A DNA stretch of 64,000 nucleotides from Fragilariopsis cylindrus CCMP1102 (lineage: Eukaryota > Bacillariophyta > Bacillariophyceae > Bacillariales > Bacillariaceae), in the NCBI GenBank assembly GCA_900095095.1, contig FMBT01000461.1, positions 25,890 through 89,889 of the forward strand. Reading direction: 5' to 3'. Positions 5,720 through 42,252 of the stretch are shown in pieces. Position 1 is the first letter of the stretch. The number at the start of each line of letters is the position of its first letter. A program made the translations under genes and the position numbers. Under the pieces are notes generated by a model. The model was not told the DNA's origin. It was given only the letters and a program-made list of their open reading frames with translations, and made no database searches.

Positions 5720-6109
5720 CGTTATTTCGTTTATGTCGTTTGTTAAAAACAAAAACACAACATACCACTAACTTAGTACCACATCATTTATTTAATTTGA
5801 ATTTTGATCTAGCGAAACGTTTAAATAAAGCTCCGCGTGGATTTAGTATAAATATAAAAACTAAATCATGCCCAGATTTTACTAGTATTTGTTAGTGCAG
5901 TACATAATAACAACTTTAGCATCAAATGTATACACCTGAAAAGTCATTTTGTTGGAAAATTAGACCATTAAGTTTACAATTGATCTATTGGATGGAGGAA
6001 TGTTATATTCCTTAGTCTTTTAAGCATACTGATATCTCATAATCTAGGCTCACACACAGCACACATTTTAGAGATTTTAGAATGTATGTGTACACTGCCA
6101 TACACCTAA

Positions 6110-6350
6110 CAAAATATCTCATTTGAAAGTGTTGCAGAGGACAGCACCAGCTAGGTTGGGTACAATAGCATTCTAATAGTGTACTAGAACATTGTGTTTG
6201 CCTCCTACAACTTTTCTGTCCTTGTGGTTGCGGAATGATATTCATTTTGCTGTTATGGAAGGCAAAAACAAACAACATGATTTTTGATCAGAAATGAACA
6301 ACAAAATATCTCATTTGAAAGGGTTGCAGAGGACAACACCAGATGGAAAG
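6110..6350 (+). repeat. ~188-base subrepeat, forward, copy A left
   Basis: One full and one partial copy of the unit marked by the box TTTGAAAGGGTTGCAGAGGA followed by AACACCAGC and, later, GAACATTGTGTTTGCCTCC. It is inverted relative to the array at 7690-8338. Confidence 0.75.
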
Positions 6351-7689
6351 GGTGCACTAGCTTCCATCATACCCATACCTACAAGGTCCTCATAATGTTT
6401 AGGTTTCTATGGATGTTATCAAGGTATAGGGTGGCTTTAACCACAAAATGGGCCATTTAGGCCCCAAAACAGGATTTTCCACTTTTGTGCAGACCTAAGC
6501 TAGATAATCAACACAAAGCACTAAGAGTAAGTTCCCTTTGGTATATATAGTGCGCCCCATCCATATATTCTATCTTCTTGCAATATCAAATGTTTCCACT
6601 GACAAAGTTTCCTTTGCATGTACCAACAGCGTAATGTCAATCTTTTTTAATCTTGTGTATGTGTGGTGTATACAGCCACTATTTTTTAATGCAGAATGGT
6701 TGGTAAGTTCATGTTGTTCCATCCAAATGTGTGTCAGTTTATTAGTAAGCACTTCATGTACTGCATTGAATTCAGTCCTCCATTGTAAATATTGACTAGG
6801 AATTTGAGGTGTCTTCCATGAGACATGGCTGGTGTTATACTATATACACAAAAGGCAATATAAACTTGGTAAGCTATGGGCAGGACCATACTGATGTGGG
6901 TGCTAAAGGAGTAAAACCTTTTTTGGAATTTTGGGGGCTCAGCACACCCTGACACCTTCCTAACCTCCCTAGAGCCCAAAGCAATAGTTGGACCTTGTAT
7001 CCATAGGTATAATGTTGAGCTCCATATAATCTTTCAAGGCTATTAGGTCTTTTATTAATGGGTGCATCACTTCCTTGATTACATGTGCACTTGGCACTTA
7101 AAGAAATTGTGTGTTCTAATAGCAGTGGATTTCCCCCAAATATAGGTATGGTTACCTAAAGCAATTATACAATCCAAAACCTTTATGAGTTAGGTTGATG
7201 CCTAGCCATTTTATTATTTGGGACTCAGCATACCTGGTATGCGCGCTGTAGCATCTCAAATATCTTTGCAATGTGTGCATTTTTGGCTATTTTATGTCTA
7301 TTCTATTGTTCCCCACCCCACCACACCACCAATATGGCAAATGTTCTATCTGGGTGTTCAAACCATGCATGGTCCAATTCCTTTTTTAGATGTTGTGACA
7401 GCCTATTTCTGAATGATATTTTTGGGCATGGAAATATGACGTGTTGGACAAAATGCAATGTTTGTATTCCGGAGGCAAGAATAAGGCAAGTATGAGGGAT
7501 CATGACCCTTGGTACATCCCCTATGGGTATAGGATGCACTATGCTAGTTCTAGAACCTGAGGAGAAGTTATTCATCTTCCTATTCAAAGTTGTTTAATAT
7601 TCCAATAATCAAACTCCACTGGAGAATTTGTGAGATAAAAATGATACCAATCAGAATTATCTCAGTCAAGTGATGATGAACCACCAGGG

Positions 7690-8338
7690 ATGGTAGGAGG
7701 CAAACACAATGTTCTAGTACACGCTGTGGATGTTTGTGCTACCGGCCCAGCTGGTTTTGTCCTCTGTAACCCTTTCAAATGAGAATTTTTGTGGTTCATT
7801 TATTTTGTGAGTTGAACAACAACAAAACAAATGTTATTCCTCAACCACAGGAACAAAAAAATGGTAGGAGGCAAACACAATGTTCTAGTACACTTTGTGA
7901 ATGTTTGTGCACCTGACCCAGCTGGTGTTGTCCTCTTCAAACTTTTTAGATGAGATATTTTATGGTTCAGTTTGGTTGAATTTCTTTTTTCTTGTGCGTA
8001 GAACAACAGTAAAACAAATTTTATTCCGTAACTATAGGAATAGAAAATTTGTAGGAGACCAACACAATGTTCCAGTACACTATGTGGATGTTTGTGCACC
8101 TGACTCATCTGGTGGTGTCCTCTGCAACCCTTTCAAATGAGATATTTTGTGGTTCATTTCTGATCAAAAATCTTGTTATTTTTGTGTGCCTGCCATAAAA
8201 GCAAAATGAATTTTATTCCTCAACCACAGGAAAAGAAAAGTTGTGGGATGCCAACACAATGTTCTAGTATACTATGTGGATGTTAGTGCACCCATCCTAT
8301 TTGGTGTTGTCCTCTGCAACCCTTTCAAATAGTACTAG
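7690..8338 (-). repeat. ~188-base subrepeat array, reverse, copy A right
   Basis: Roughly three and a half tandem units read on the minus strand, each carrying the TTTGAAAGGGTTGCAGAGGA box and the GAACATTGTGTTTGCC box. The last unit ends in the element terminus near 8338. Confidence 0.75.
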
Positions 8339-8600
8339 TGATTTTGTATATGGCTGGTTCGAACTAATCCAGATAAACTGCACATCAAAAGCCGGTGGTG
8401 AAGTGGAAATAATGTACAGCTGGCTGATGCTTCATCATATCTAGAATAAGTCCATAGTCTTTAAAAGGTTAATATGTAAAAAAACTACTATTATTATTGA
8501 TGTGATATTGTTTTTTGCTCGTTATCCTTCTTTTGTATAATGTATGTATTTCTGTCGTGAATTGCCTGCTTCATTCAGAGAATATTTGTTCTATATTTTT

Positions 8601-9527
8601 CTATGATACGTGTAGACCCAATGCTCTTGATAAAGTGCGTGGATCGTATTGATTGAACCCATCTCTCATTTCTTGTCGGGATATGACTCCATCTAAATTC
8701 AAATCTAATGCTTTCAAAAGTGATTCCGCTCTGACAGATGATGCGTGTCCAATTTCACGAATTGTGGTCCCTTCATTATTATTTGTTCCGTTTACCCTAA
8801 AGTGCATTTTCAATTCTTCGGCGTCAATCTCTTCACTTCGATCGGTATCGATTGAATCGAATATGATATCGGCAAGTTTAGTGAGTAACTCGGGTGATGT
8901 GCTGACAGCCTCGGTAATATCATTATTATTATTATTTTTGTTGTTGGCATCGGATCGGATCGATTCAATCACCTCATGATACGGAGTAGTTCCTGTATCG
9001 TTAATATCCAAACCAAATGCTTTGTACAAGTTCGCAGTATCGTACTTGGACCAGGCAAATCGCATCTCTGCCTTCGAAATAATCCCATCGGCATTCTTGT
9101 CTAATATCGTAAATAATGATCGTATCGATTCAGCGGCGAAACCGATACTTTCGAGATGACTTTTAAGTTCCTCATTGGATATTCCACCATCATTATTTGT
9201 ATCGAGCATATCAAATAAGGAATCAGCTTCCGCAAATAGTTCATCGGATTTCTCCACAGGTGACGACGACGACGTTTGACTGTTGTTGCTGTTGCTGCTG
9301 CTGTTGGTATCGATTTCATTCGCGTCAGCTGTTTTGGTAGCAGCAGTACCTACGAAAGGTCGACGTAGTCCGGCACTGCTACAGCAAGAAGAATAGAATT
9401 GTTGGTGTGCGGCATTCCGTGTAACAGCTGCGGAAGGTCCAGCAGTGAGTAGAGCATTTGCGGATGATGCAATCATTATTGATACTACCAACGCTACTGC
9501 AGTGTCGGGAAAGGAAAACTTCATCAT
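8601..9527 (-). CDS. Four-EF-hand calcium-binding protein with signal peptide
   Basis: An intact single-exon frame of 308 residues from ATG at 9527. The N-terminus (VALVVSIMIASSANA) looks like a signal peptide, followed by a Ser/Ala-rich segment that could act as a plastid transit peptide (cleavage ANA then Leu), though the usual aromatic residue is missing. Four EF-hand loops are visible: DTNNDGGISNEE (109-120), DKNADGIISKAE (143-154), DTDRSEEIDAEE (227-238, atypical at position 6) and DLNLDGVISRQE (275-286). They sit as two pairs separated by a Asn-rich linker, as in calmodulin-like proteins. The role is probably calcium sensing in the secretory pathway, plastid or outside the cell; its partner is unknown. 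Confidence 0.85.
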   Translation of the reverse strand: MMKFSFPDTAVALVVSIMIASSANALLTAGPSAAVTRNAAHQQFYSSCCSSAGLRRPFVGTAATKTADANEIDTNSSSNSNNSQTSSSSPVEKSDELFAEADSLFDMLDTNNDGGISNEELKSHLESIGFAAESIRSLFTILDKNADGIISKAEMRFAWSKYDTANLYKAFGLDINDTGTTPYHEVIESIRSDANNKNNNNNDITEAVSTSPELLTKLADIIFDSIDTDRSEEIDAEELKMHFRVNGTNNNEGTTIREIGHASSVRAESLLKALDLNLDGVISRQEMRDGFNQYDPRTLSRALGLHVS

Positions 9528-10370
9528 GATGTGGATTTATTTAGAGTAGATGTGTGATGCGACTTTTTGCTTTTGATCGAACACAGTAAGCTTAAGTCTT
9601 CGTTGTATTTGTTAGGTCACTCGTAGAAATGCTTCCCATTAAAAAGTGTGCGTATGAATGAAGATAGAGATAGAGATGATGTCATCATGCAGTGGCATTG
9701 TTGCTCTCTTCTATGTTCGTGAGAAAATGCATTCTCTCAAACAAAAAAACTTGAATCCTTATTTTCAAATTCACTGCTGTGCGTCACTGCACACGCATTC
9801 TCAAATATAAGAACGCGAGGTGTGTTAAGCTCGTAAACAACGCGTGTTCTTTTCATGCTAAAAGTATGATACGTTTCCCAAAAGATACCTTTTCATCTTT
9901 TTTGCGCGTGCAAAAACAAAATACGCAAACGAGAATTGTTGAAAATGTAGTACTGTACGTACATTAAACAAAAAGGAAGAAAACTGACACCTTCAGATTT
10001 CAGTCAGCGCTCACTTTTCAATTCAGAGAAAAATTATTGATCTTAAAAATAGCTCAAATTTATTTTTCAGGGATTGAAATTCATTAAGTCACACGCACTC
10101 CATGTTACTTTTTGTTGTTCAATAATTCCTGGCGCGGCTACTACGATAGGATCACTAATGAAATATAATTGATGAAAATTCCTGGCGCGTTGGCGTGCTC
10201 GTTTTTATAAGACTGTGTTTGTACAGTACGTACAGTAGTATGTACAGTAGCAGCAGTAGAGCATTGATTTTTTTACAGAAATGTACAAAACAAAATCTTT
10301 ATTTGGATGAAAAAAGAAGAAAAAAAACTCCTACCTCACCAACACATAAAACGAAAATGCTACTGTACAA

Positions 10371-10510
10371 CAACTTGTTTCTTTTCGACCTGTGCCTCCC
10401 TAAGCTTACAAGCTATTAAGGGTCAGCTACCAATTGCTGAATAAATGGCTGGTAGTTAGAAACAAGCCATTAGAACATCCCGCCTGTCAAAGGAGAGGGA
10501 TTTGTTTGTA
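10371..10510. repeat. 140-base direct repeat, copy 1
   Basis: Appears identical to 10535-10674 over its whole length by eye. It runs from CAACTTGTTTCTTTTCGACC to GGGATTTGTTTGTA. The two copies are separated by 24 bases. Near-perfect identity suggests a recent duplication or the remnant of two short terminal repeats. Confidence 0.85.
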
Positions 10511-10534
10511 CTAGTAGTGTAATCCTGATTGTAA

Positions 10535-10674
10535 CAACTTGTTTCTTTTCGACCTGTGCCTCCCTAAGCTTACAAGCTATTAAGGGTCAGCTACCAATTG
10601 CTGAATAAATGGCTGGTAGTTAGAAACAAGCCATTAGAACATCCCGCCTGTCAAAGGAGAGGGATTTGTTTGTA
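10535..10674. repeat. 140-base direct repeat, copy 2
   Basis: Second copy of the unit at 10371-10510. Part of its tail (TTTGTTTGTAGCATAA) recurs near 10871, so more of the surroundings may be duplicated. Confidence 0.85.
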
Positions 10675-11575
10675 GCATAAGCATCAAATAGTAATAGTAT
10701 TGTTGATCAAAAAGAAGAAGAAGAGGAAGAAGAAGGAAAACGATTTAACAACAATCAACCAAAAATAAATAATATACATATTGTAGACTAGTAGCTAGTA
10801 GATATATAGTCTAATAATAGATTCGTTTTAGTTTTAGAATAGATTTTATAAGTTTAGAATCGTCGTTGTTTGTTTGTAGCATAATCCTGATTTCAGTATT
10901 AGTACTGATACTGTGATGATTCGAACACAATGCTAGCATATATAATTGGTGTTCAATTAGTATGCCTTTTTTTTTTACGAGTGAGTGAGTCGAATGATGG
11001 CATGACAATCTATAGACCCCTACTAGTATGGAACACAAAACAGCCAACAACCAGCAAATCAGCTTTCAAAATGTAGTAGGAATTCTAAAGTGTGATTTGA
11101 CAACAATACATATTTTAACCCCAGCCAGTAACCTTTTACACTAGAGCATCATGGAAACATAACTTGAGCGCTAAACAGACCATCTTGCCTAGGATTGCTG
11201 TAGACTGTGGTACCCCTAGATTGCAAATCTGTTAGTATCTTCACTAGAAACAAATGGAGCTTGTGGCTAGATCTGCTTTTTCAATTTTGAAGGACAAATA
11301 ATTGATACCTTCATTAGAAACAAATGCTTCTTGAGACTGAATTAGATCCTGAAATCACTAGCAAATGGGACTAACAGTAGAGACAGCAAAGACACCGTTA
11401 CTAGCCCGTACATAATACTACAGTCCAGTATGAGTTGCAACCAGACGAGCCATACCCATGCACGCATCATTCACATGGTAAGGAAGATAGCATACCCATT
11501 TGAGTAGACGATAGGATAGATAGCTCATACTAACATTAGATATTAGTTTAATATCAAAGTATTCTAAGGTGGTAG

Positions 11576-14500
11576 CTAGACCGGTAAGCACCGCGTCTCA
11601 TAGATCCTATTACTAACATGTTGGACACGGTGCGAAAGGTACCGGATAGCAATATGATCCAAAATACGAGCAACTGCAGGATCTTTTTTGATGAGTAATT
11701 CCCATGCGTCTCTACTCAGACTAAAAACAACAGCACAATCGGAGTCACAAGCTACTCCACTTAAACGATCAACTCCTTCTATAAGTCCAAGCTCCCCGAT
11801 CACAACACCTCGTGGAATTTCCTCTCTTACAGCCGTTCCCTTCATCATAGCTGTGAGTTCGCCACATATAATAAGTTTCGCACTATCACTCTTATCTCCT
11901 TGATTCCATACAACCTCGTTCTTGGTGTACACTTCCCGTTTGAAATATGATAGAAATGTAGTTGCATCACGCTTCCCATTGGAAGAAGAATCAACTCGGA
12001 GGAGATTTTGTAGGTAATGAATCGCCAGCTCCTTTTCTTCTAGTTCATCAAGATCCTCATTCTTGCCCTCGTGGAGGTGAACAATGCGACTTTCTCTTTT
12101 GAGAAGGGATGAATCCTCGCGTGTGATAAGAATGTCTTCAGCAAAAACAAGCGCATCGTCAAAGCCGGCACATACTTGGTTCTTCGGAATAAGCTTTAAT
12201 ACGTCACTTATTTCTTCATCAGGCTCCTCCAAAATTGCGGTCGACAGCCCATATTTTGTTGGGAAGTATCCTGATATAAATCAAGAGGTGAGCGAGTGAG
12301 CGATTGAGTGAGATCAAAATAATAGTACGTATAAAACGACGCACTCGGTACGCAAAAGAACGACAACAATTGAAAGGACCACACGAAAACAGTTAGCACA
12401 TACCTCTGTGACTACCCATGACAAAAATGTTCGTTTCAACTTTAAAAATCTGAGTCATTGAATTTTTGAGTTTGTTAACGGTCTGTGCAGCAGTAGAGTC
12501 CATCGTTGTTACGAGGGTGAAATCCATAATAACGATGAGAGGTTTGTCATTAGCCAATGCCTCCTTAATCCTATCTGCTAAATCAACAGCGTTACCAAAA
12601 AAATAAGTTGCCCTGTAATTGGATAACCATAATTTTTGACCGACCCGTTTTAGTTGAATCAAGGACTGCTAACGCTTGAGGTGGTCGTGTCCATGCACTG
12701 CTGCCTGTCATTATATTAGATGTAAACACGTTTGTTTTGGAAAAGTAAGTCAAGTTAGTCCATCGTATCAAGTCAAACCTGTTAGTACGAAACTGAACGA
12801 CTAAAAGTAAAATGAAACGAAAAGAGACTTACGGAGCGTCGTTGCTGATGTTATTTTAAATATTGGATCCAGATTTTGTACAGACTGCAATGCAAACGTC
12901 GTCATTGCGACGATAATACCAGCTCCCAAAGCTGGTGTCATCCCCATAAATGTCATGACAAATGTAATTACAATAATCTGATTTTGTGTATTATAGAAGA
13001 GAGAGAGATACAGAGATACAGAGAGTAACGGATGTAGCATAGATTAGAAAAATGTTCGCGGTCGGATAGGATATCAGCATTCGAAGTAGAAATGAAAAGA
13101 AGATCACGTGTGCATGTACTCACTCCTCCATATTCAATAGAATCATATTCCTCATATGAATAATAAACACCTTCCATAAATAGATCAACACCGATATGTA
13201 GCAGTAACGTACCAGCCATACATCGGGGAATGTATGGCATTGTGCTTGTTCCGAATACAAAGATAAAAATGTAACCAATAATTAATGCGACTTGACCCGC
13301 TCTACTTTTTCCACCAGATTTATAATATAATACCGAAACAGAGTACGTCATAACATTTTGAATACCACCAAATAAACCAGTTAATATATTAGAATAACCA
13401 TGACTCATCAATTCATTATTCATATCAACTTCAACATCGCATGTATTAGCGAATGCTGGGATATTAATTGGAACATTAATAACAGAAAAACACGATACAC
13501 CGATGACGGTACCTAATGCATTAATAACTGCCGTCCATGAAATTGTTGTAAAATCAACGATACGTAACAGATCCATAATATGACCATCAATACAGTATCC
13601 AAAAAAGATGGAGTAGTACCACTTCCATCATCATCTTCCACCGATGACGGAAAAAAATATCCTGCCGTTGTTGCTTGTTCCATACTAACACCAAAGATAT
13701 ATAATGCAAAATAATACATTGGGATGATAGAAATAAAGAATAAAGGTGCTAATAGTGTAAACTTTGGTCTACCATTCTTATCTTTTAGTACTGTCATAAG
13801 AATCCGTAATACGACCTCAAATATAACAACTGGTGCAAATTCATTAGAATTATCATACAAAGTACGTACACCATCGGCAGTAAATGTAAAGTTCTCACCG
13901 ATCATAACACCGGTTGATGAACAACCAATAAATACACCAATACCACCAATAAAACCAACTAATACATGATTTGGAAAATAATATACAACCTTACCTAATC
14001 CAGCTTTACCTAATCCATAAAATACCAATCCTGTAACAATTGAACTTAATCCAAATAGGAAAAATAATGTTGATAATGCTTCTTTACCATACCCTTGTTC
14101 AGCAATAACAATACCAGCCATCGCGTGATAAAATGGTACATTTTCAATTAATTGTGAAGATACTGGACTCTTAAAATTTGATGCAAACATTAAAGCAATT
14201 TGTCCTGTAATACATGCAAATAAAAACATTCGTATACCAAGTACTTCCTTTCCTGGTTGTATTACGGTAAACGACGGTACAGTGGTCCGTGGTCAAATAG
14301 GGGAAAAAAAAATAGAAATAGAAATAGAAGAAACAAAGAAAAAGAATCATTAGAGATCAGCATGATAACAAGGAATTTTAATTCAATTCAATTCCTCGAA
14401 ACGAATACGAATACGAAACGATTGAGCAAGACGAATACGAATTATATTGTTCAATGAATTTTGAATCTGATAAAAAATATTTACATACCTGGTAATGGAA

Positions 14501-14951
14501 ATGAACCAGAAATACCATCTTCTGCAGCGGCATCATCGGTAGTATTATCCCCATCACCATCACCACCACCATCACCGCCACCACTCCATCCTAATGGAAA
14601 ATATGCAACACCAAATGGAATAGCTGTCATAAAATTAATCATAAGTGTTACAATAATTGCTGGAATTTCTGCAAAGAAACTTTCATCACCATCATCATCA
14701 TCATCATCTTGTATTACGTTTCTATCACTACCTCCTCCTATACTCTCAGTAATAGTACATGTGTCATTCTTATTATTGAAGTCAATCGTATTCGTCGATC
14801 CATAATAGCCGGTAGAAGAAGAATCAGTATCAGTTTTAGTCCATTCTTCACCACTAATAAGAGGTTCGATTTCAGAATCAGAATGGCGAACACTATAGGC
14901 ATTTTCAATAGTTTCAAATCCACTCGCTCTTGGTCCTAACACCGAATCCAT
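11576..14951 (-). CDS. SulP/SLC26 anion transporter with STAS and cyclic-nucleotide-binding domains
   Basis: A membrane transporter for sulfate or other anions, about 910 residues. Exons: 14951-14489, 14252-13124, 12977-12833, 12704-12404, 12270-11576; every junction has GT-AG and matching phase. Acidic N-terminus, then SulP membrane segments (PFYHAMAGIVIAEQGYG, YYFPNHVLVGFIGGIGVFIG, NALGTVIGVSCFSVINVPIN). The STAS domain (KIMVIQLQGNLFFGNAV; IVIMDFTLVTTMDSTAAQTV) lies in exon 4. A cNMP-binding fold (EVVWNQGDKSDSAKLIICGE; GVVIGELGLIEGVDRLSGV) ends the protein, hinting at control by a cyclic nucleotide, although the usual PRAAT-type arginine is not evident. Two frame breaks sit in homopolymers: A7 at 12597-12603 (one base too many) and A6 at 13601-13606 (one too few). 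The stop is TAG. Confidence 0.85.
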
Positions 14952-15674
14952 GATAACTACCTACAGCAGGTAGATGTTATAATAAATGAATGGTTGGTTT
15001 GATGCTTTTTTCTCTTTTAGATAAAATCACTCTGACAAATTTGTTACTGCTGTCATCGAATGCCAATAATACAGAGTACCGCCGATCTTTCTTCATTCTT
15101 CGCAATTTTTTTTTTAACACGGCGTAACAATTTTAAGTGCACAAGACAGCGAATGATATTTCGCTCATCTGAATTCCTTGAAGGCTTGATGCTTGATTCA
15201 CGATTAGATTCATTCATTCGTCGTACAGTACTACTGTACACACAGTTGTACCAAAGATATGTATTGTATATACCATACTATGCATTTATAGGTATGATAC
15301 ATATCTTTGAAGTGCGATATCTCCCCCAAATCAATCAAAACTGTCCCCTAAATAGTAAATATCTTTGCTTCGTTTTTCTTCACGTTGTGTTCGAAGAAGA
15401 CGCACAAAAATCTTCACATAAGTACCGGTATGTTGTGATGAGTTCTTGTTTCTTCACATGACGATCTCCTTGCTTATCTCATCTTCAACACAAAGATCAA
15501 GGCACCAAATAATAGACAACAACAAAGTTGGGAGTAAATGACTTTGTATTAATACACTAGTGGAGAGAAAACTAAAGCAACGCTTTGGGTATTCGCAGTT
15601 TCTGTTTCCAATCTTAAAATCTTACTACAATAGGAAACACCAAAAACGAAAAACAAAAAAGCAAACAAAAGAAG
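14952..15674. promoter_or_regulatory. Divergent intergenic region, SulP and FABP-like genes
   Basis: About 720 bases containing both 5' ends. It includes T-rich and TACTGTACA-like words near 15230-15240. No other gene seen. Confidence 0.35.
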
Positions 15675-17054
15675 ATGGAGATTATTATTTCATCATTGAT
15701 ATTCGTTGTTGTCGGTACCTTCGCCATTGGGTATGGATTTGGGGGTTCTACTTCTTCTTCTTCTTTGTCGAGTTATTTAACAACAATAGCAACCTCATTA
15801 CTGAATCGTTTTGATGAAACACTTATGTCATCGTCATTACCTTGGTGGAATTTATATACCACAATCGTATCAAGTTATATAACAATACGACTTTTAATTT
15901 ATTTATAAATCCAATTTTAGAATTAATTGCATCTAAGATATATAGTAATAATAAAAGTAATAAGTCTGCTGAATCGAAGTCATCATCATTAATGTCGTCG
16001 TCAAAAAGGTCTCTATCGACGACAAGTAGACCGGTGACAACAAAAGATCGTTCTCTTCTAAGCGATGCTGATGACAACGAACAACAACAAGATGACGAAC
16101 AACAACAACAGAATGAAAGACGAAAACAAAAACAACCAATTGATATGACAGGAAATTATCAATTAATACTAAATGAAAATTTTGAAGCATTTTTAGGTAC
16201 ACAAGGTGTACCACGTATGTTTCAATCGATCGCATCGAAATCAAGACCAATACATCGTATTATTCATATTGATCTAATTTATCAATAAAAATTGAAGGTA
16301 TTGTTGACACATATACAGAGTATAGTATTGATGGACCATCCATTATCACAAAAATTCGTGGTAAACCATTTACTGATTCTGTTACCTATTTAACATTGGA
16401 AGAATTAGGTTTAAAACCAAACCCAGAACCTACTACTACTACTACTACCAATATTGATACTGTAACTGCTAATAATGCTAATCCGAGTAGTGATAATGAT
16501 TATGCAAGTGGGGATAGTGGTACTCTTACAGCAGACGATGGCAACGATTGCAACGATGACAACGATGACAATGATAATGATAAGAAAAGAGATAATAAAC
16601 GTGGTAGTACATTAGATAAGATAAAAAAGAGTTTGTCTAGTAAGAAACGCGAAATTAAAACAAATATAAGTAAAGGTGGGAATTTACGTGCATCAAAAGT
16701 GAAGCGATTGATTCAAAATAAATCAACAAGTAGTAGTAACAGTATAGATGAAGAGGAGGATAATGACAGTGACAATGAAACTTATTCCAATTGTTGAAGA
16801 AATTGATAGTAATAATAAAAAGAAACGAAGTAGTAGCAGTAGTAGTAGTAATGGTCCTAATACTGGTACCATTTGTGGTATAAAAAATATTAAACGTCAA
16901 GATGATGAAAAATATACATTAACAGTACATCGTAGATTTCGATCTTTGCATGAATAGAAAAATCAAAAATTGAAGTGATATTACATGTTGTATATGATGA
17001 TCTAAAAAAGATGATGTTATAGCAAAACAATTATTTGAACGTATATATATATAA
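15675..17054 (+). CDS. Membrane-anchored fatty-acid-binding-like (FABP fold) protein, frame broken
   Basis: ATG at 15675. A hydrophobic N-terminus (IIISSLIFVVVGTFAIGYG), a second hydrophobic part (SSYITIRLLIYL, then NPILELIASKIYS), a Ser/Gln-rich linker, then a segment like the start of an iLBP/FABP barrel: GNYQLILNENFEAFLGTQGV, IKIEGIVDTYTEYSIDG and IITKIRGKPFTDSVTYL, a long Asn/Asp/Lys insertion, and late strands KYTLTVHRRFRSLHE and EVILHVVYDDLKK. The reading frame changes at about 15906, 16286, 16790, 16955 and 17004-17009 (A6). Four are equivalent to one missing base and one to an extra base, yet each segment stays protein-like. Binding of fatty acids or acyl chains at the ER is a guess from fold. 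It could be a pseudogene, but sequence error fits better. Tail-to-tail with the next gene, 48 bases apart. Confidence 0.55.
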
Positions 17055-17102
17055 GTATATTTAATTAATTATTTAAATAAATTCTAAAAGTAAAGAATGC
17101 AA

Positions 17103-17766: not shown

Positions 17767-18376
17767 TTTTCGAGATCGAGTTGTTAAGTTGTTAAGTTGT
17801 TGTTTTGCAAGTGAGCTAATTTGATTTTATGGTCCTTATTGCATCAGAGTACTCATCGACGAAGTGTAGGACTTTCCCATATGGGACCAAAATTGTACTA
17901 CATACTAGTAAGTACTGCGTAGAAATTGGTTTCATTGCTGTTGGTTTTATTCGAGTGTAGTAAGAGAAACAGAAATATGATACGTTTCTATAGTCTGTTT
18001 CGATCGCCAAGCATTACCTCTCTCTCCCTCTCTCAATCGTAACAAAAAAATCACATCTTTCCTTTTTCGTTTAGTCGTGTTTAGTTAAAAACAATAAAAC
18101 CAACAGCTAAACTAATTGCTGCTGACGCTTAAGAGCGCGAACCCTTAAAATCTTAGCTTCTTTTTTTTCTTTGTGAGTTCAACACGCTTTTATGGTCTAA
18201 GAATTCCTCACGATAGCGCGTGCAACTAAGTGTTAGCTGAAGGATGTACAGTACGGTACAAACATATCGTGAACATAAAAATCACATAATTTTCATTTCG
18301 ATTGTTTGTTTTGTATTGCGACCTTAACAACAGCAATAGTAATAGCAACAACATCAGCAAAGACAGCTTCTTCAAG
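17767..18376. promoter_or_regulatory. Divergent intergenic region
   Basis: About 600 bases between the zinc-ribbon gene and the RING gene starts. Contains GTACAGTACGGTAC near 18247. No gene seen. Confidence 0.35.
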
Positions 18377-23287: not shown

Positions 23288-24665
23288 TAACAACAACTAC
23301 CAAAAATATAATATAAAATTATTTACTACTGTACTGTAATCACCCACTCAACTCAGTTATGTGAAAATAAAAGTCACTACGGTAGGAGGAGAACAAAAGA
23401 AAGAAAAAGAAAAAAAATGAAAGGGGGAACGAAAAGAAAATATACCACACAGCAGCACAGGCAGGTAGGCAGAAAGACTTACTTCCTAATGTTAATAATA
23501 CAATGTTAAATTGTTTTTAAGAAAAAAAATTACATTATATTTACAGTATACACTACTACTACTTATTATACAATAGGATATAAGTATTGCCTACAACAAC
23601 ATGTATGTGCCATACTATTTTAGGGGTATGTTCATATTCATCCAATATAAATCGAAAATCCTATTGTTTCCCTATCCCTCCACGACCTTTTCCTACCAAA
23701 AAGAGAGGTGTGCGTTTGGATATGGAAAGGTGCAGCGTTAAGTATGACTGGGTGGGTGGTGAATGAGCGATGCCAATCTCTGATGGGATTGATCCATGTC
23801 ATCTTGGAAGGATAATTGTATATGGGAACACACAATGTACAGTAAATTATTATCTCAGTAGGTTTTTTTTTTTTTAATTGAAGAATTCTATTAAATAAAG
23901 TACTAGATGAAGTTGAATTAATTTACTGAAAGAGATTAAGTATGACTGGCTGATCCATTAATCAAGGCAAAAGGGCCTATTGGAACATCATCGCATGAAA
24001 TCATCTTCATCATCAACATCGACATCGACATCAACATCAACAGCGACTAGCGACGAGCGATGTATTTTACTGACAAGCAGAGTTGTCACTATTTAATACG
24101 AGTGATACTAAAGTTCCATATGCGGTACGGAGATCTTTCTTTGCCATTACCAAATGACATTTTTTAAATGTATACTCCGCCTTTTACATACGCGTGATGA
24201 GCACGATCTCGAAAAACGCATCCCTACAAAAGATCTTCGCGCTCACTTTTGTATGTACTTAAGGCACTGAAGTACTTGAAGGAACATTGCACAGTACACT
24301 TGTGTACAGTATTGTGTTTTCGCACGAGTCCTAATTGGATCTTTCTTTTTGTGCGTTGGGTGTGATGTTAATGTTACTATCAATTGATTGTTGTTGAGTT
24401 TGTTGGGTGTTTGTTGAGTTTGTTGGGTGTTTCAGTTCGTTGTTGATCACGACTGTACTACAGTGTGTGCATTTTCTCACATTTCCAACGATTCATCATA
24501 ATAATCAAGCAGAGGAAGATTCGATTCCATATACATCATCATAAAACTTTTACAGTGTACAATAATAAACAGACCACTTTCTTACTACATTTTAATGTTA
24601 AGAGTTGTATTACTACATCTACAGCAGTAGAACAATACAGCAATACCACTTACAAGATAACAATC
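23288..24665. other. Intergenic region upstream of ferric reductase
   Basis: About 1.4 kb. It includes a GTTTGTTGGGTGTTT direct duplication near 24395-24435 and CACAGTACACTTGTGTACAG near 24292, an imperfect inverted repeat. It should contain the ferric reductase promoter; no known iron-responsive element was recognised. Confidence 0.35.
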
Positions 24666-25372
24666 ATGTTCGACGAAGAACAAGCAGTCGTTGAACTTTC
24701 CGCAAAAGGAAACGGAGATAACTGCGAACAAAGTGAGATCAACGGTGATGATGGGTTTCGTATCAGCAATAGCAATATTAACAGCAACATTAAGAGCAAC
24801 AGCAAGAGCAACAACAGCAACGATATCAAACGATATACCGAAATACCAAAAGGATCATTCGATACCAATCGTATTGGGAATGCTATTGCTATCTGGACAT
24901 TAATTCTGGTTTGGTTTTGGATATCAATGTATTGGATTCTAGTATATGTTCCTTTCCCACCTATGGGTGCCGGTTCTGAAGACAATGTATTCGCTTATTC
25001 AGATTATGTTGTTAAACCCATCGCAGAAAAAGTACGTCCATTCATTCAATAATTTCGATACAAACATGATTTATTTGATGATAGCACGACAAAAACTTCT
25101 TACGCCTTTGTTCCTCATCGTCTCCCTTTGTCTCTCCTACTTATTATCATCTTCTTTTTTTTTTACGAAGCTTTGTCCATTAACGTCCCCTGATAAACAT
25201 GGCACAGAATGTGTGTGGTATTATCCAGCTTTTGCAGCCTTTACGGTCGTTGCATTACTAGTACGCAAAACAACATTCCGACCAAGAAAGCTAACGGGAC
25301 TACGACTTGCAGGAGACTTTGATTTTCTTTCCTTCGGTAAATGTTCTCTTGTTCTTGTTCTTCTTGTTCTTC

Positions 25373-25410
<38 letters not shown>

Positions 25411-28400
25411 TTGCAATACATAATATATTATAAAATATCTTATTTACTTCAATCTCATCTATACAAATATCTTTATTTTTTCTAATAATTTATGCTACAC
25501 AACGTCCTACTTTTGACCGCATTATATCGTCATTCTAGCATACATTGCAATCGGTATACCTCTTCTCATTTACTTTTGCTTCTACATGTACAAGAAATGG
25601 CCGCTCCGTGAAGACATGACCGATACAGAATTTTTAGCGGATATATTTGGTACATTCGCGAACAGAATTGGCTTTGTAAGCGTTTGGTGTTTAACATTCT
25701 TTATGATTCCTGCAACACGACATGGTCCAGTTCTTGCTGTTCTAGGATGGCATCCATACCATGCGATGACTGTTCATATGTGGTGTGGTTGGGCTGCGAT
25801 CGCAACAGCATACCTTCATACATTCTTTTACATACTCAAGTATTCAGTTGGTGATTATCACAAAGAAGCACCAGGACAGCGTGGATGGAACTACTTCTTT
25901 CCACCCCCTATGTGCTTTGTACCTTCTCACTACAGTGAAGGAACAAATGAAGATGGTACACCAATGCCACCGGAAGGTTATAAGCATTGTAAAAAAATGC
26001 TTGCAGGATTTTTTGGAACGATTGCATTATCATTCCTTACAGTACTTACAATCTGCAGTATGAAATTATAAGAAGAAACCAGTATACTGTATTTTATTTT
26101 GCACATATCTTGTGGTAAGAAATTAAGAATACGAAAGCGAATCGAAGAACCCTGCAAATTGGAAAAAGTTCTCATGTCTGTATTATCAACTATACATCTC
26201 TCTCTCTCTCTTCTCTCTATGTATCTTTTACTTATAACGAAAATGATAAAAAGCGCACCGATGTTCCTTCTATTCCTTATATTGCATTATGGAAGGGCTA
26301 TCACATACATTTGGCCGTCGTTGTTTTATTATTTCGCAACTCAAACACCATTTTTAATGCAACACTGGAGATATACTGTATACAATTATGGACTAAAGAT
26401 TACGGATGTTATGGATATTCCCTGTGAAAAATTGGATACTAATGACGATGAAGATGATAACGAAGCATCTACTGTTTCGACCGAAGCATCTACTGCTTCG
26501 ACAATGACACGGATCAAAGCAATCTTTTCACCGAAATCAATTGATTGGCTCGACGAGAAGATTAACAGAAGAGGATCATTAGCTAAGCCTGTGGAACATT
26601 GTATTAGCTTTGCTTTTGAAATTTCAGAAGAAGGAGCCGATCAGTTTTACCCCGGGCAATATGGAAACATTTGGTGCCCAGATGCGAGTATGAAGTCACA
26701 TCCGTTTTCGATTACACACGTTCCGGGCAAACGTAGTCAATTGCGGATTATTTTTCGTGTGTTCGGAAAGTGGACCGATCTATTGGCACGAAGTTTGATC
26801 CAACTTCCATGTCCTGGACATCAACAAGAACTCCTCCCGATTCCCAAAATTATGATGGATGGATTCCATGGTCCTTCTCATCTTGTTGGAAACGCCACTC
26901 AATCATGATAAGGTACAGTAAAATCTCAATTATATCCTCTCGACCCCCTAGTGATGCCATATCGCATCAAGTTGTATAATCTTTCTCACACAATTTCGTT
27001 TATGCACTTCAACTTTTAACATAACTGCTTTCCTTCTTCTTAATATCAAAGGTCATTCTTGTAGTAGCCGGAATTGGTATAACGGCATTCTTATCCATGT
27101 TGACTGAAATGATCGAATTGCTTTGCTTCAACGAAGATGGCATGTTTATCAAGATGGACGAGATTGAAGGTATCCCTCAAACTAAGAGAATTGAGCTTCA
27201 TTGGACAGTTAGAGACCCTAACCTCGTTAAGTATATTACCGATGAATATTTCCTACCTCTCATGCAAAAGGCATCAAGAAAAGAAAGAAATGGCGAACTC
27301 AATCATGACGGAAAACAAGATCTATTTCAAGGAGCAAGCTGTCATATTCACATCCATGTAAGTTTGTTCTCTCTATTTGATGCGGGGTATGTTACCTTAC
27401 AAACTTTTTGACTATATATATATGGTTCAGTCGTCTCAATTTTTTGTCGAATTCACGTTATCGTGCACTTTTCTCCTGTATTATTATGTGATAAACACAA
27501 CAGAGAACCGGAGATGCTGGAGCAAAATGCGAAGCTGTCGATTGCAATTCGCTTTGGAACGATTTCTGTGACAAGCCAGAGCGTGGTAACAAACAAGTCG
27601 ACTTTAGCCTAATTGGAACGTTTGGATCGCCTTGGCATCCGTACCGTTTCTCATTTGGTCGATGGTCAACGTTTTACGAGCATATACCTTCCATTTCTAT
27701 GTTTGTTGCCATCTTTTGGTGCTCGTACGCATTTTCCGGGCAGGTTCGTTATTGGTTAGGTAATAACTTTTATAGTCTTCCAGATGCAGTAAATAATGCT
27801 GCTCAAGCCTGGGAATTCTTTCCGATTCTGTTGTTTTCTTTTGTCTTTGCTTTTATTGGACACGTATTGATGGATTGGAAACAAAATCTTGCTGCCAAAA
27901 ACAAAAGACAGTCCCCTGACGAAGTAAGTTCATAGTTAAGATCGTAGGCTTGTTGATCTCTGCAGCATTTATTTATCTAAAATATCTGATAGTATTTGTC
28001 TCACACAGTACTCTGCGTATGTATTGTCGCATCCCATCACGATCGTCTTTTTACCTAAAAGACGACATCGTCGCCGCCGTCATCGTTTATTCAAATTTCT
28101 ACGGTTGATGATGAGATGTTGTCTTCTGACGTCGTCCAAACTAAGATCTTGTCCATTAATTCTACGGCCGGCAGACCAACATTTGAAAAGATGTTATTGT
28201 ACAACGGTCATGATCACGATAACGTGGACGAGGACGATAATGATAATGATAACGATAACGATAAAAGCATACATAACAGTACTGGAATATTCATGTGTGG
28301 CCCAAGTGGGATGATTGATTCCTGTAAAAAAGCTACTCCTGGAGGATTGGCGAGTTGCAATACTAAAAGAGGTGAAAGGATTCAAAATTTCTTTAACGGA

Positions 28401-28439
28401 AACAAATTCGTATTTTACGAAGAAAAATTTTCTTGGTGA
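24666..28439 (+). CDS. Ferric-chelate reductase / NADPH-oxidase family, seven exons
   Basis: A plasma-membrane flavocytochrome moving electrons from NAD(P)H through FAD and haems to extracellular ferric iron; about 955 residues. Exons: 24666-25031, 25171-25336, 25539-26114, 26254-26912, 27052-27357, 27504-27923, 28062-28439; each intron is GT-AG with consistent phase. The ferric-reductase membrane domain has candidate haem histidines in GWHPYHAMTVHMWCGW, YLHTFFY and FAHILC/LHYGR. HPFSITHVPG is the FAD-binding motif; ILVVAGIGITAFLSML and FMCGPSGM are the NADPH-binding motifs. The last exon has an Asp-rich insert between them. Two frame breaks: 26063-26065 (one A short) and about 26896-26905 (one base extra). 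Family members in diatoms respond to iron limitation; that is general knowledge, not visible here. The TGA stop is at 28437. Confidence 0.9.
25374..25411. repeat. GT dinucleotide microsatellite in ferric reductase intron 2
   Basis: About 17 GT units in the 25337-25538 intron, near its 5' splice site. Length polymorphism is likely. Confidence 0.9.
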
Positions 28440-29087
28440 AAGAAGAGATCAATTAAGCTGTTACTGTATGTTAAATCATACACGATACCCAATGTTAGGA
28501 AAACGATGGCTATAATACATAGGCCATTGATGTTAGTGAAAGTAAATGTTGTCCTATAAACGTGTCATGTAGAATCGGAATTATAGATGACCAGTTGAAG
28601 TCGAAGCACAAATAAGAGAAGTGTATCAGAGTTACAGATGACCAGTTAAAGTCGAAGCACGAATAAAAGAAGTGTCCGCCGAACCGCTAATGTATATGTA
28701 TAAGGCGAAGTGATGTTACGAATAACGTTGTATACGAAGTTACTGTTTACCGCAATACCAAAATACAAGAAAAGAACAGACTACGAGAAATGAACTATCT
28801 CTCTCTTTTATTGTTGATGAATTGTAGTAACCATAGACTAATTAAACAAGTGTGTTAATAACAACCTTTTGCAATTGAACAACCGTTGTATTGCAATAGC
28901 AGTATTCATAGAGATATCTACAGAAAGAATAATCACCATCCGTAAGGTAGGTCCGTATTCAAGAAGGGTACTAGATTTTTTAACATATAATAAGGTTCAT
29001 ATTATCATTATCGTGTTGTTCTATAAATGAGGACATACGCGAACAGCTCTCATCATATTCGTTTTATTATCTCTTCCATATTTACGT
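28440..29087. other. Intergenic, convergent 3' ends
   Basis: About 650 bases between the ferric reductase stop and the aquaporin stop. Holds a 52-base tandem duplication (28580-28683). No gene seen. Confidence 0.4.
28580..28683. repeat. 52-base tandem repeat, two copies
   Basis: AGATGACCAGTTGAAGTCGA and AGATGACCAGTTAAAGTCGA start the two units at 28584 and 28636. Lies in the 3' flank of the ferric reductase. Confidence 0.75.
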
Positions 29088-30435
29088 TTACTCATACGCG
29101 TGAGGAACAGCATCATCTGTAACGGCCTCTTCTCCGGTATTCTTCGCATCTTCATCATAAATTCGTGGAACTTGACCCTCAACGTCTTTGTCGTCGTCAC
29201 CACCAGCAACATCATCATCTTTCTTCGCTTTTCCAGCATCATCCTCCTCCTCAGCAAAAATGAATTTGTATGTTGCTGTTGCAAGAATACTACCAACAAA
29301 TGGTGCTGTATAAAATACCCACCAACCACGTTGCCAGTAATTTAAACCACCCATACTATCAACGACCATCGGACCAAGTGACCGTGCTGGATTAATACCA
29401 CAACCAGTGTATGGAATCAAGATAAGATGTGCAACCAGTACAGCCCAGCCAATTGCAATTGGTACAGCATTCCCGCCAGTTGATTTGGTATGTACAGCAG
29501 CCTGTAATACAGTAAATACTAATAGGTATGTGCCCATAAGTTCAATTAAAAATGCACACCCAGATGAGACACGAATATCAACTGTATTAACACCTAATCC
29601 GAATGCTGGACCATATCCTTCACCATTTGGTAATTCAGAAGCACCACATACACCACTTATTTGTGCTTCTAAACCAGCTGCAGTTATTGTATCACAATTT
29701 GCTGTCAATGATGCGTTACAACCCCATAAAATTAATGCACCGAAGATCGCACCTAAACATTGTGCAACCATATAAAGTAATCCAGCTGTAATGCTTTGTA
29801 ATCTTAAAAGCATAAAAGACAAGGTCACTTCGCGATTGAAATATTCGATAAGTATGATTGGTATGTTAGAAGTTGTCAAGTGAAATTTTAGAAAGGGCGA
29901 ATGGTATCTTCAGACGCCGGGAGTACTTACCAGCAGGATTGATATGTCCACCAGAAATATGTCCAATTGAATACGCTAGTACCGAAATTGTAATACCAAA
30001 TGCAAGAGCGATACCGACAAGCGCTCTGTGTATTGCAATTTAGTTAATAAAAAGGGGTTGGTCTGAGTTGTTTAGTTTACTGGAATGTTTGTGACGACAA
30101 TTTCAAAACATCAACACGAACAGAACTAAATAAATAAATTACAAATCACATTGCTGTCGTGTCGCAATTTCTATCATCTACCTCACTCTCTCATTCCACA
30201 CACAAACACACACACAACAACAAAACGAAAACAAAACATCAATGTACGGTACACTTCTTCTTCTTCTACAGTATATTACAGTACATTACAGTACGGTATC
30301 TTACCCAGGATCAAGGAGTAACGCGGTTGGTGTCCAACGATTTGATGATACAGCTGCACCACATCCAGCCCATACAAATAAGGCAGTTGCAACAAATTCA
30401 GCAGCAAGCTGACGATAATTCCAATCTGTTGCCAT
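29088..30435 (-). CDS. Aquaporin (MIP family), three exons
   Basis: A water or small-solute channel of 321 residues. Exons 30435-30305, 30025-29931 and 29827-29088 join in phase at GT-AG sites. First helix [18 protein letters not shown]; first NPA box [11 protein letters not shown], split by the second intron exactly at Ala/Val; second NPA box [14 protein letters not shown], with the arginine of the selectivity filter. Typical MIP helices lie between. The C-terminal tail is long, acidic and Lys-rich ([17 protein letters not shown]), longer than in most plant aquaporins. The frame is intact. Subfamily and substrate cannot be set from sequence alone; it may sit in the plasma membrane or an inner membrane. 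Confidence 0.93.
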
Positions 30436-31506
30436 TTTATTTTTATTTCTTTTCAATGACTTTTTAATATCTTTTATGATGATTATTATGTGCAACTGAG
30501 TTATGTGACTTTTTGTTTTTCCGTACTCTAGTAACAGTAACTTAGCTGTTTGTTTGTGCTTGTTACTTGTAAAGATAGGAAGAAAATGTGCGAATTCTTT
30601 GTTATGGTAAAATTGTATGTGTTGCCTGTAATTTGAAAGTATGTTATGCGCAGTCATACATAACGATCAGCAGTCATTAGAAGAAAAAAAAATCAATAGT
30701 AAAAAATGACACATCTTTAGATTCCTTCATTTTTCCCAATACCGTTAATGTAAAAACGGCGAAAAAGTGTGGACGTGATGTCAATAGATCGCTTCAGTAG
30801 GTTCAGAACGTTCTTCTTTTTAACGAGCCTACGTACAGTACATAAGAAATTGATATTTAAAATTCAAGCGCGGACAAAGCACAGAAAATAAAAAGAATAT
30901 ATATTATAAATATTTTTCAAAAAAGGAATCTTCTTCGTGAAGGGCAAACCTAGTCAATTCAAAATGGGAAATTTATATAAAGGTATCTCAACTGAACGGA
31001 CTATGGTTTTGTAGGTACCTTTAGGTTTCAATTATGATATTATACTACTGTATCATAGGAGAAAGAATAGTACTGTAAGTACCTTTAGGACTATTATAAT
31101 AATAAGAAATAATAGTAAAAAGAAGAGGACCTTGTACCAACTTTTTCTAGTAGTACACAGTCAGGTTGGTGTGCCATTGATTGAAGTCTGAATTAGATCT
31201 AATACTCTATTATTTTATATCAATAGGAGTAATATATAATCATATTGAAAGTAGTCTACACGTGCGCAGATTGCTTCATTCTGACCTCTTGTTTCAAACT
31301 TGGATTTACTACAGGCAACACACATTAACTTTTCTATTTGGGGGTTTTCCTAAGAACTAGTGTTTTTAATTAACTATATATATTTTCTGTCCCTAAAAGT
31401 GTAAATGGTTATGATTAATAATTGCCCCAAAATTGGCATAGAGGGACACAAAAATGTATTTGGGGACAAAATATTTCATACAAAAATATTGTTTTCATGT
31501 ACTACG
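30436..31506. other. 1.07 kb intergenic region before element copy B
   Basis: AT-rich, with repeated GTAAGTACCTTTAGG-like words (near 31013 and 31076). No gene seen. Confidence 0.35.
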
Positions 31507-31509
31507 CTA

Positions 31510-32320
31510 GTACTATTTGAAAGGGTTGTAGAGGACAACACCAAGTAGGCCGGGTGCACTAACATCCACATAGTATACTAGGACATTGTGTTGGCATCCT
31601 ACCACTTTTCTTTCCCTGTGGTTGAGGAATAAAATAATACATTACACTTTTATGGAAGACACAAAAATAACAAGATTTTGGATCAGAAATGAACACAAAA
31701 TATCTCATTTGAAAGGGTTGCAGAGGACAACACCAGCTGGATCAGGTGCACAAATATTAACATAGTGTACTAGAACATTGTGTTTGCCTCCTACCACTTT
31801 TCTATTCCTGTTCTTGAGGAATAAAATTCGTTTTGTAGTTGTTCCATGCGCAAAAAACAAGATTTTCAACCAAAATGAACCACAAAATATCTCATTTAAA
31901 AGGTTTGAAGAGGACAACACCAGCTGGGTCAGGTGCACAAACATTCACATAGTGTACTGGAACATTGTGTTTGTCTCCTACCACTTTTTTGTTCCTGTGG
32001 TTGAGGAATAAAATTCATTTTGCTGTTGTTGCACGCACAAAAATAACAAGATTTGACCAGGAATGAACAACAAAGTATCTCATTTGAAAGGGTTGTAGAG
32101 GACAACACCAAGAAGCTTTTCTGTTCCTGTGGTTGAGGAATAAAATTCGTTTTGCTGTAATGGCAGGGGCACACAAACAACATGATTTTGGACCAGAAAT
32201 AATGCACAACAAAAATTCTCATTAGAAACAGCTACAGAGAGGACAACACCAGATGGATCGGGTGCACAAATATCCACATAGAGTGTACTAGAATATTGTT
32301 TTTGCCTCCTACCATCCCTG
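31510..32320 (+). repeat. ~188-base subrepeat array, copy B left
   Basis: Unit boxes (AAGGGTTG or close) occur at about 31522, 31713, 31898 and 32087, giving a spacing near 188 bases, then a shorter last unit near 32226. Confidence 0.8.
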
Positions 32321-33779
32321 GTGGTTCATCATCACTTGGCTAAAGTAATTCTGATTGGTATCATTTTTATTTCCCAAATTTTCAAGTGGAGTTTGGTTAT
32401 ATTGAAATATTAAACAACTTTGAATAATAAGATGATGAAGAACTTTTCCATAGATTCTAGAACTAGAATGGTGCACCAAAATACCACCCAGTCATCCATC
32501 CTATACCCATAGGGGATGAACCAAGGGTCATGATCCCTCATACTTACCCTCCTTATTCTTGCCTCCAGAACACAAACATCTTGCATTTTGGCCAACATGT
32601 CATATTTCCATGCCCAAATGAAGTATCATTCATAAATAGGCTGCCACAACATCAAAACAAGGAATTGGACCATGGTTTGAACACCCGGATACCTTCCATA
32701 TATGCATATGGTCAAAATAAACCAACAATACTTGGAGGGAACAATAGAATAGACATAAAATAGCCCAAAATGCACACATTGCAAAAATATTTGAGATGCT
32801 ACAGCCCCCATACCAGGTATGCTGAGTCCCAAATAAAATAGCTAGGCATCAACCTAACTCATAAAGGTTTTGGATTATATCATTGCTTTAGGTAACCATA
32901 CATACATTTGGAGTGTCACGGGTCAAAACCCACCGCTATTATATTAGAACACAAAAAATGTCTAAGTGCCAAGTGTGGGTGTAATCAAGGCCTTGATGCA
33001 CCATCAATACAGACCTAATAACCTTGAAGGATTATATGGAGCTCATCATTGTACCTATGGATACAATGTACAACTATTGCTAGGGCTGTAGGGAGGTTAG
33101 GAAGGTGTCAGGGTGTGCTAAGCCCCCAAAAGGGTCATTTATCCCCCAAAACAGGTTTTCCAGCCCACATCAGCAAGGTCCTACCCATAGCTCGCCAAGT
33201 TTATATTGCCTTTGGTGTATACAGTCAACTCCATGTGCTTACTTTGGGATAATTCATCGTTTTGAGTGCGTACCATGTGAATCAGAGACCCTATTAATGG
33301 GGGCTTTAGGTGGGTTAGTTTATTTTACAAGTAAAAAAATTGGTGTTGGAGCATTTACCAACCAACAGTGACTATTTTAATTACTAATTACAGTCCTCAA
33401 TTGCTTCTTAAAAGATGAGATATTTTTGAAAACAGGGTTAAGCTACAACTACATCCAAAATAATGGTGGGTTGGGATGATGATGCTTCCCATTCACAAGT
33501 AATATGTTCTAGTGCGGACAGTGCATCAATAATTCTGTGTTCTAATTTACCTGGTGGTATGTGTAAATAAAGATAACAAAGAGCTGTGTTTTGGGCTATA
33601 ATCATACAGTATAGTGTGGGATGGTGTGTTCATTTCTTATTTTAGTATATATAGAAATGACAGTAACAAATACACGCTGTATAGATTTACCTTAACAAAA
33701 GTGGAATGGAAATGGTTGGTTGGTGTTTCAATGCAGCAGACACCAACATGCAGATATGGGTATGTTTTGAAATTTATTT

Positions 33780-34640
33780 CGCTGTTGTGCAAGATTCTGG
33801 TCAAGAATGAACAGCAAAATAATATCTCATATGAAGGAGTTGCAGAGGATAGGACAACACCAGCTGGGTCAGGTGCAGTAGGATTCACATAGTGTACTAG
33901 AACATTGTGTTTGCCTCCTACAACTTTTCTGTTTCTGTTTCCATTTCTGTTCCTGTGGTTGCGGAATAAAATTGTGGAAGGCACAAAAATAACAAGGATC
34001 AGAAATGAACTCAAAATATCTCATTTGAAAGGGTTGCAGAGGACAACACCAGCTGGGTCAGGTGCACTAACATCCACATACTGTACTAGAAGATTGTGTT
34101 TGCCTCCTACAACTGTTCTGTTCCTGTGTGTGGAATGAAATTCATTTCTCTGTTTTGGAAGGCACAAAAATAACAAGATTTTCAATCAAAATGAACACAA
34201 AATATCTCAGTTGAAAGGGTTGCAGAGGACAACACCAGCTGGGTCAGGTGCAGTAGCATTCATATACTGTACTAGAACATTGTGTTTGCCTCCTACAAAT
34301 GTTCTGTCCATGAATGCGGAATGCAATTCATTTCTCTGTTGTGGAAGGCACAAAAATAACAAGATTTTTGATCAGAAATGAACACAAAATATCTCATTTG
34401 AAATGGTTGCAGAGGACAACACCAGCTGGGTCAGGTGCAGTAGCATTCACATAGTGTACTAGAACATTGTTTTTGCCTGCTACAACTTTCCTGTTCCTGT
34501 GGTTGCGGAATAAAATTCATTTCTCTGTTGTTGAAGGCACAAAAATAACAAGATTTTTGATCAGAAATGAACACAAAATATCTCATTTGAAAGGGTTGCA
34601 GAGGACAACACCAGATTGGTTGGGATTACTAGCACCCATT
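33780..34640 (+). repeat. ~188-base subrepeat array, copy B right
   Basis: About five forward units with TTTGAAAGGGTTGCAGAGGA, then CAGCTGGGTCAGGTGCA and GAACATTGTGTTTGCC boxes. They are closer to each other than to the left array in wording, which suggests local homogenisation. Confidence 0.8.
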
Positions 34641-34976
34641 ATATCTATACCTACAAAGTCCACATAATGCTTAGGTTTCTATGGTGGTTATGAAGTTTGA
34701 GGGCTGCATTAACCAAAAAATTGGCAATTTAGGCCCCAAAACAGGGTTTTCTACTTTTGCGTGCACCTAAGCTGAATAATCAACACAAAGCTCCAAGAGT
34801 TAGTTCTTTTTGGTATTTATGGTGCACCTCATCCACATTTTGTGTGATGATTCACCTTTTTGAGCGTACTGTATGTCCACAAAAACTGCAAATGGGCCAT
34901 TTTTTGGGGTTATTTGATGTGTGCTGTGTAGTGTGTGAGCCTGCATTAGGAGATACCAGTAGGCTTAAGAGACTAA

Positions 34977-35140
34977 GGAATGTAACAGTTCTCCATCCAA
35001 TAGATCAATTGTTAACTTCAAAGTTTATTTCTCCAAAAATATGATTCTTTAGGTCTATTTACTTGATTGATGCTAAAGTTGTTATTATATAGTAGAATAA
35101 CAATTACTAGTAAAATTTGGGCATGATTTAGTTTTTATAT
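34977..35140 (+). repeat. 164-base element end module T in copy B
   Basis: Begins GGAATGTAACAGTTCTCCAT and ends GATTTAGTTTTTATAT. Nearly the same as 37631-37794 and, inverted, 5852-6012. Confidence 0.85.
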
Positions 35141-42250: not shown

Positions 42251-42252
42251 CG

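Follow-up and report, generated by a model that had tools for sequence, protein, structure and literature searches.

In chimeric copies of the transposon Galileo in Drosophila the two ends are unlike, being derived from different subfamilies, and an identical target duplication is missing; the available part of the report on this element invokes ectopic recombination together with conversion to account for them (PMC3573991). Tetris, an element of the foldback kind, is described in the accessible portion of another report as apparently non-autonomous and modular, with many rearranged forms and internal tandem repeats of about 220 bp (PMC4079207). As for diatoms, the word CACTA occurs once, among the references, in the available text of a paper on their transposable elements (PMC7017206), and a diatom element of the kind treated below is not described in the titles and abstract openings found in our literature search, a statement that is confined to those texts. 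Here, two related copies, A and B, are analyzed in a stretch of 64,000 nucleotides from Fragilariopsis cylindrus CCMP1102 (assembly GCA_900095095.1, contig FMBT01000461.1, positions 25,890 to 89,889), hereafter called the window, which is part of one contig in a searched assembly of 68 Mb and 818 contigs. Both copies are probably old remnants of composite structure, derived from a large family of DNA transposons that are non-autonomous and have terminal inverted repeats (TIRs). For the ends of this family the names alpha (CACTA-type), G (the TA-flanked CAGGCAAC type) and beta (a tentative third type) are used.

Organization of copies A and B

Pieces that are separate from one another in other loci are joined in each of the copies A and B, by joints that are locus-specific and are found on both homologous contigs, that of the window and C515 (Table 1). 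Read on the plus strand, A consists of an alpha remnant, an inverted T block, a spacer, 187-bp units, the linker K, a unique segment of 270 bp, the inverted core, inverted units and CACTAGTAC; its arrays are inverted to each other (repeat I2: 246 nt, 85%) and it has no X block. The order in B is a left outer block called Lend, 187-bp units, core, X, units, K and T, followed by a different outer stretch. Among the 33 loci that were read at length or mapped, which include four pieces of C515 and several homologous pairs, the K-core joint of A and the core-X joint of B (at 33270) were each found only at their own locus and its C515 homologue.

A preliminary description of the window had correctly placed the many matching blocks that A and B share, and the order it gave also stands: from the array end both copies run through array, core, array 2 with linker, and T, the block of array 2 and linker lying in opposite orientations in the two. 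Its view that the copies are non-coding was borne out, the longest listed open reading frames (ORFs) having 102 (A) and 125 (B) amino acids, with no Pfam match up to an E-value of 0.1. The boundaries it had named as the outer ends of the element did not hold as such. B extends outward for about 200 bp more, to about 31310, through a block common to other loci that ends in TA followed by CAGGCAACACAC, and A continues on its T side into a CACTA-type outer end that other copies share. The alpha match of A spans 5796-5856, and most of the terminal CACTTTGGTGCGTTACACCC stretch, which the C515 homologue retains, is gone from it. At its other side, A breaks off at CTAG owing to a deletion of 16 bp beside CACTAGTAC relative to C515, where the homologue of A keeps about 20 bp of Lend beyond the array end. 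A Helitron-like reading of this CTAG end was considered and rejected, given that CTAG belongs to CACTAGTAC. The outer remnants on the two sides of each copy differ in kind; they are partial, and the right one of B is weakly defined.

Table 1. Positions in the window of the modules that make up copies A and B, and of a separate T block
Feature	Positions	Strand	Remarks
A: alpha outer-end remnant	5771..5851	-	from C515 alignment and flank class; outer limit approximate
A: T block (subterminal)	5852..6066	-	inverted relative to the T block of B
A: T-array spacer	6067..6120	+	non-array part common to six other loci, not in B
A: array 2	6121..6357	+	two matches to the 187-bp unit
A: linker K	6356..6569	+	K positions 9-222; K is related, with divergence, to the 3' portion of the core
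A: junction segment	6570..6838	.	of the loci fetched, none but this one and its C515 homologue has it
A: core	6839..7704	-	
A: array 1	7691..8330	-	four unit matches
A: CACTAGTAC motif at array end	8332..8340	-	then, outward, 16-bp deletion relative to C515
B: Lend, left outer block	31310..31504	+	terminus TA, then CAGGCAACACACATTAAC; beyond the coordinates of the preliminary description
B: CGCTAGTAC at the Lend-array joint	31505..31513	+	one base off CACTAGTAC
B: array 1	31515..32314	+	six unit matches
B: core	32300..33270	+	
B: X block	33270..33830	+	
B: array 2	33829..34614	+	five unit matches
B: linker K	34620..34916	+	on C515 just the first ~88 positions remain
B: T block	34916..35140	+	absent at the corresponding C515 place
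B: tentative third outer-end type (beta)	35141..35225	+	weakly matched by L017, L022, L026, L030, L033
Separate partial T block	37629..37794	+	also on C515

C515 is regarded as the homologous contig because its positions 40001-80000 run parallel to the window, in inverted orientation, with larger collinear blocks that are 91-96% identical. Between the two contigs the flanks are 93.8-96.5% identical and the A and B elements 83-95%. Given these identities and the presence of both elements on C515, it was concluded that most of A and B dates from the separation of the two contigs or from before it. Copy A is present on C515, and copy B is present there up to about 34707 only. In place of window positions 34708-35254, C515 (within locus L022) has about 1.6 kb of coding-like low-complexity sequence, with repeated GATTTAGTTTTTATT, the motif in which the T block also terminates; this coding-like stretch and the one in L017 show no match to each other at an E-value of 1e-6.

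The family and its ends

The interior of the family is made of T', a variable number of 187-bp units, the core (or its short relative K), Y and T, and it lies both within CACTA-type ends (5'-CACTAGTACCACTTTGGTGCG...) and within TA-flanked CAGGCAACACAC ends. When both ends named in the preliminary description were searched in the whole genome, as it had proposed, the array end (CTAGTACTATTTGAAAGG) was found exactly at 16 places and the T end (TATAAAAACTAAATCATGCCC, at most two mismatches allowed) at 388, the reversed control giving 0 in each case. Homologous contigs contribute to these and the following genome-wide counts, which therefore exceed the number of independent insertions.

Alpha termini occur at 67 places (control 0). 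In the 40 of them whose flanks were examined (12 with no mismatch, 23 with one and 5 with two, some being homologous pairs), conservation starts at the C of CACTAGTAC and drops outside it. The motif is exact in 12 of these 40 termini and agrees in at least 7 of its 9 positions, with an offset of up to 1, in 29; two control windows yielded 0 of 40 each. L042 (C420:251189-254085; 2,897 bp) is an intact member of this kind, whose termini start with 5'-CACTAGTACCACTTTGG and, following the CACTA terminus rule, begin with 5'-CACTA at both ends. At each end CACTAGTAC and 27 further bp are perfect (36 bp), and the inverted-repeat alignment continues over 254 columns at 86%; the interior is T-Y-core-array-T, with the 187-bp array and the core. 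A second, older alpha example is L036, with TIRs that are 85% identical. Truncation at the 5' side, as in a long interspersed nuclear element, had been considered from the varying left limits of the copies and was rejected because TIR pairs fit better.

The second type, G, is flanked by TA, the target of Tc1/mariner-type elements. Lend starts with TA and CAGGCAACACAC, the inverse standing at the end of its partner, R2; Lend itself gave 120 first-look candidates in the genome, 40 of which were scored. Ends with TA and CAGGCAAC were found at 134 sites (control 12), and among the 98 sites for which letters were printed, 92 have TA before CAGGCAAC, TA itself being in the search pattern. Exact facing G pairs lie 2.3-3.0 kb apart at C84, C351, C354 and C451, and left and right G ends match in inverted orientation over the terminal 24 bp and more weakly further inward. 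Lend and R2 flank array and core in L012/L021, L014, L017 and L037 (L012, L021 and L014 without the outermost Lend bases), and in L084 Lend is followed by GAATTCTC, then T', then units. L037 sits within a T block that is uninterrupted in its paralogues and hence looks like a real insertion. For L042, the empty-site check suggested in the preliminary description gave no empty allele, its left flank having a single match in the genome, itself.

The T block meets more than one of these ends. Thirty T ends were classed as 11 alpha, 2 G, 7 of a weak third type and 10 with none, in a set that includes the reference copies, homologous and overlapping copies (L015 is the same as L025) and L038, which runs off its contig. 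Remnants of unlike ends are present in L019 (G on the left, alpha on the right) and in L027 (alpha on the left, G on the right). Two side observations concern the same ends. Facing CAGGCAA ends only 308-310 bp apart, at C354:37345-37652 and C327:23599-23908, may represent a minimal element of the second type, and in L055 and L066 alpha termini directly adjoin Lend at AACTAGT, where one end type may have inserted into the other.

Proposed origin of copies A and B

In a scheme in which A and B are composites, intact members would have transposed by a cut-and-paste mechanism that used transposases provided in trans, and recombination or nested insertion within the shared interior would have generated composites with unlike ends, such as L019, L027 and the copies of the window, which may then have decayed. 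The inverted look of A would come from the head-on joining of two parts, T'-array-K and core-array, and not from an inverted B. The preliminary description had proposed instead a single element with two fixed ends, in which array 2 and the linker flip by means of the element's own repeats. The block order of A versus B and the inverted arrays in A agree with such a flip, and the core of B is among the nearer relatives of that of A (89.6% identity, slightly more than the median, which is 88.7%; rank 4 of 21 as seen from A and 15 of 21 as seen from B), but this model is very unlikely. The first 32 positions of the A spacer recur at 94% in L036, L034, L027, L084, L042 and L037, the same six loci in which T adjoins the array through this specific spacer, whereas B matches, beyond trivial words, its array part only. 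As the non-array part of the spacer is missing from B, A is not derivable from B by simple inversion. Furthermore, the outer stretches of A and B differ, and A has the unique 270-bp junction and no X. The T blocks of the two copies are 84.2% identical (rank 24 of 27 neighbours), less than the family median of 88.8%, and their K blocks 81.8% versus a median of 84.7%; a special pairing of A and B is not confirmed by these alignments. From the earlier proposal of a non-autonomous element moved in trans, a non-coding TIR-type family that needs mobilization in trans is retained, and the single element with shared ends is not.

The sharp limit of T allows another explanation, in which T...T would be a transposon in its own right (terminus AATATAAAAACTAAATC) and would have entered other elements with inverted repeats again and again, alpha and G being its landing sites. 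The base at which T adjoins its flank is the same for alpha, G and others, and its 388 sites exceed the 134 of G and the 67 of alpha, counts obtained with different search patterns and mismatch limits. This explanation is nevertheless unlikely: alpha lies symmetrically outside T on both sides in L036 and L042, and the closest facing alpha pair among the 67 places is 2.9 kb apart, with no short empty alpha element there, even if the G pair 308-310 bp apart does exist. An ordinary segmental duplication or a satellite array of which A and B would be parts is scarcely conceivable. The units of 187 bp are indeed in tandem and the window does have a homologous contig, but dispersed copies with exact termini are located on many contigs, and the repeat scan, in line with the flank check set out in the preliminary description, gave no host flank common to A and B.

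Several observations weigh against the composite origin of A and B. Neither an autonomous copy nor a linked transposase was found; in the intact member L042 the longest stop-free stretch has 87 codons. The CACTA transposase family PF02992 has no match in this genome, a search whose control was positive in 0 of 14 genomes. Target duplications are weak, since the flanks of L042 have AA on both sides and agree over 2 bp only, L036 has no clear duplication, and the empty-site comparison of L037 gives a T(A) duplication with one base missing on the left. The sharp boundary at which T meets different outer ends may mean that T...T itself inserted, and truncation is a confounder for the unlike ends of L019, L027 and A, which lack both termini. 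On C515, other sequence takes the place of the right end of B, with the larger part of K and the whole of T, so the full structure of B is not old on both contigs, and the identities of the elements to C515 are partly below those of the flanks. Finally, 33 loci were read at length, against 474 first-look T candidates in the genome, and they were chosen by array or T matches, which biases them towards copies that retain those blocks; a further locus with the order of A or B may therefore have been missed.

The composite reading of A and B remains the probable one. A wider and more tentative proposal, on balance somewhat doubtful, is that unrelated types of transposon ends, two at least and perhaps three, each dependent on a different transposase, carry the same non-coding interior (T'-array-core-Y), which would have spread through the genome by exchanging its ends.

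Transposase genes and other features

DDE_3 and MULE genes are present in the genome, with no link to either end type shown. The DDE_3 transposase has two matches, and one of the contigs concerned, C714, also carries L019 and an alpha terminus, at least about 37 kb away. The two MULE matches are on C69 and C299, neither of which is among the contigs listed with alpha termini. In ten ORFs near the copies, Pfam gave host-type domains or weak low-complexity matches and no transposase, and an Rfam search of the window at gathering thresholds gave nothing. The silicon transporter family has 27 matches in the genome (best E-value 1e-226; in the control, weak in 1 of 14 genomes and above the cut-off in 0 of 14), a result that suggests a diatom.

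Other repeats and rearrangements were also observed in the window. Positions 10369-10674 contain a perfect tandem duplication with a period of 164 bp (1.9 copies), and about 20 copies of a 12-bp repeat lie at 37145-37397, inside an ORF with a fasciclin domain (36611-37486). A segment of 0.8 kb (41800-42577) is inverted on C515 at 88% identity between collinear flanks; a search of its two edge regions found no inverted repeat of more than 10 bp between them.

Comparison with known systems

Like Tetris and other foldback elements, as far as the available descriptions go, the family is non-autonomous, modular and rearranged, with internal tandem repeats. The likeness to foldback rearrangement drawn in the preliminary description does not extend to the anatomy of the intact member. 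The array of L042 is in a single orientation and outside the TIRs, and L042 therefore lacks foldback anatomy, that is, long inverted termini containing tandem repeats, whereas the repeats of Tetris lie within its inverted termini; target duplications are of 8-10 bp in Tetris and of at most 2 bp in L042. With CACTA (EnSpm) elements the alpha-ended copies share the terminal 5'-CACTA and the TIRs, but in the available text on those elements (PMC8978399) the subterminal units are of 10-20 bp, and not internal units of 187 bp as here, and the duplication is of 3 bp, compared with AA only in L042 and none in L036; nor was a CACTA transposase found. The G ends resemble Tc1/mariner-type elements in the TA, itself part of the search pattern, that precedes CAGGCAAC, and the genome has its two DDE_3 matches.

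The sole unusual part of this picture is that entire end types may have been exchanged around a single interior. If the same interior does move under CACTA-type and TA-type ends, it would be a natural case of an interior changing its machinery and would help to explain how non-autonomous families outlive their transposases; otherwise, the result is an ordinary and useful annotation of a diatom transposon family and a warning that ends common to decayed copies may be internal blocks.

Galileo differs in several respects. Its chimeras, in the available part of the report, join subfamilies of one transposon, whereas the ends joined here look like different transposon types; its host is Drosophila and not a diatom; its 7-bp target duplication has no counterpart in the 2-bp agreement of the L042 flanks; and no transposase of its P type was seen here, where no search aimed at that type was made. 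Galileo, according to the same text, resembles the present family in having copies with unlike ends and internal tandem repeats (about 210 bp in Galileo and 187 bp here), and by this analogy the best reading is that the composites of the window may have formed much as the chimeric copies of Galileo have been explained.

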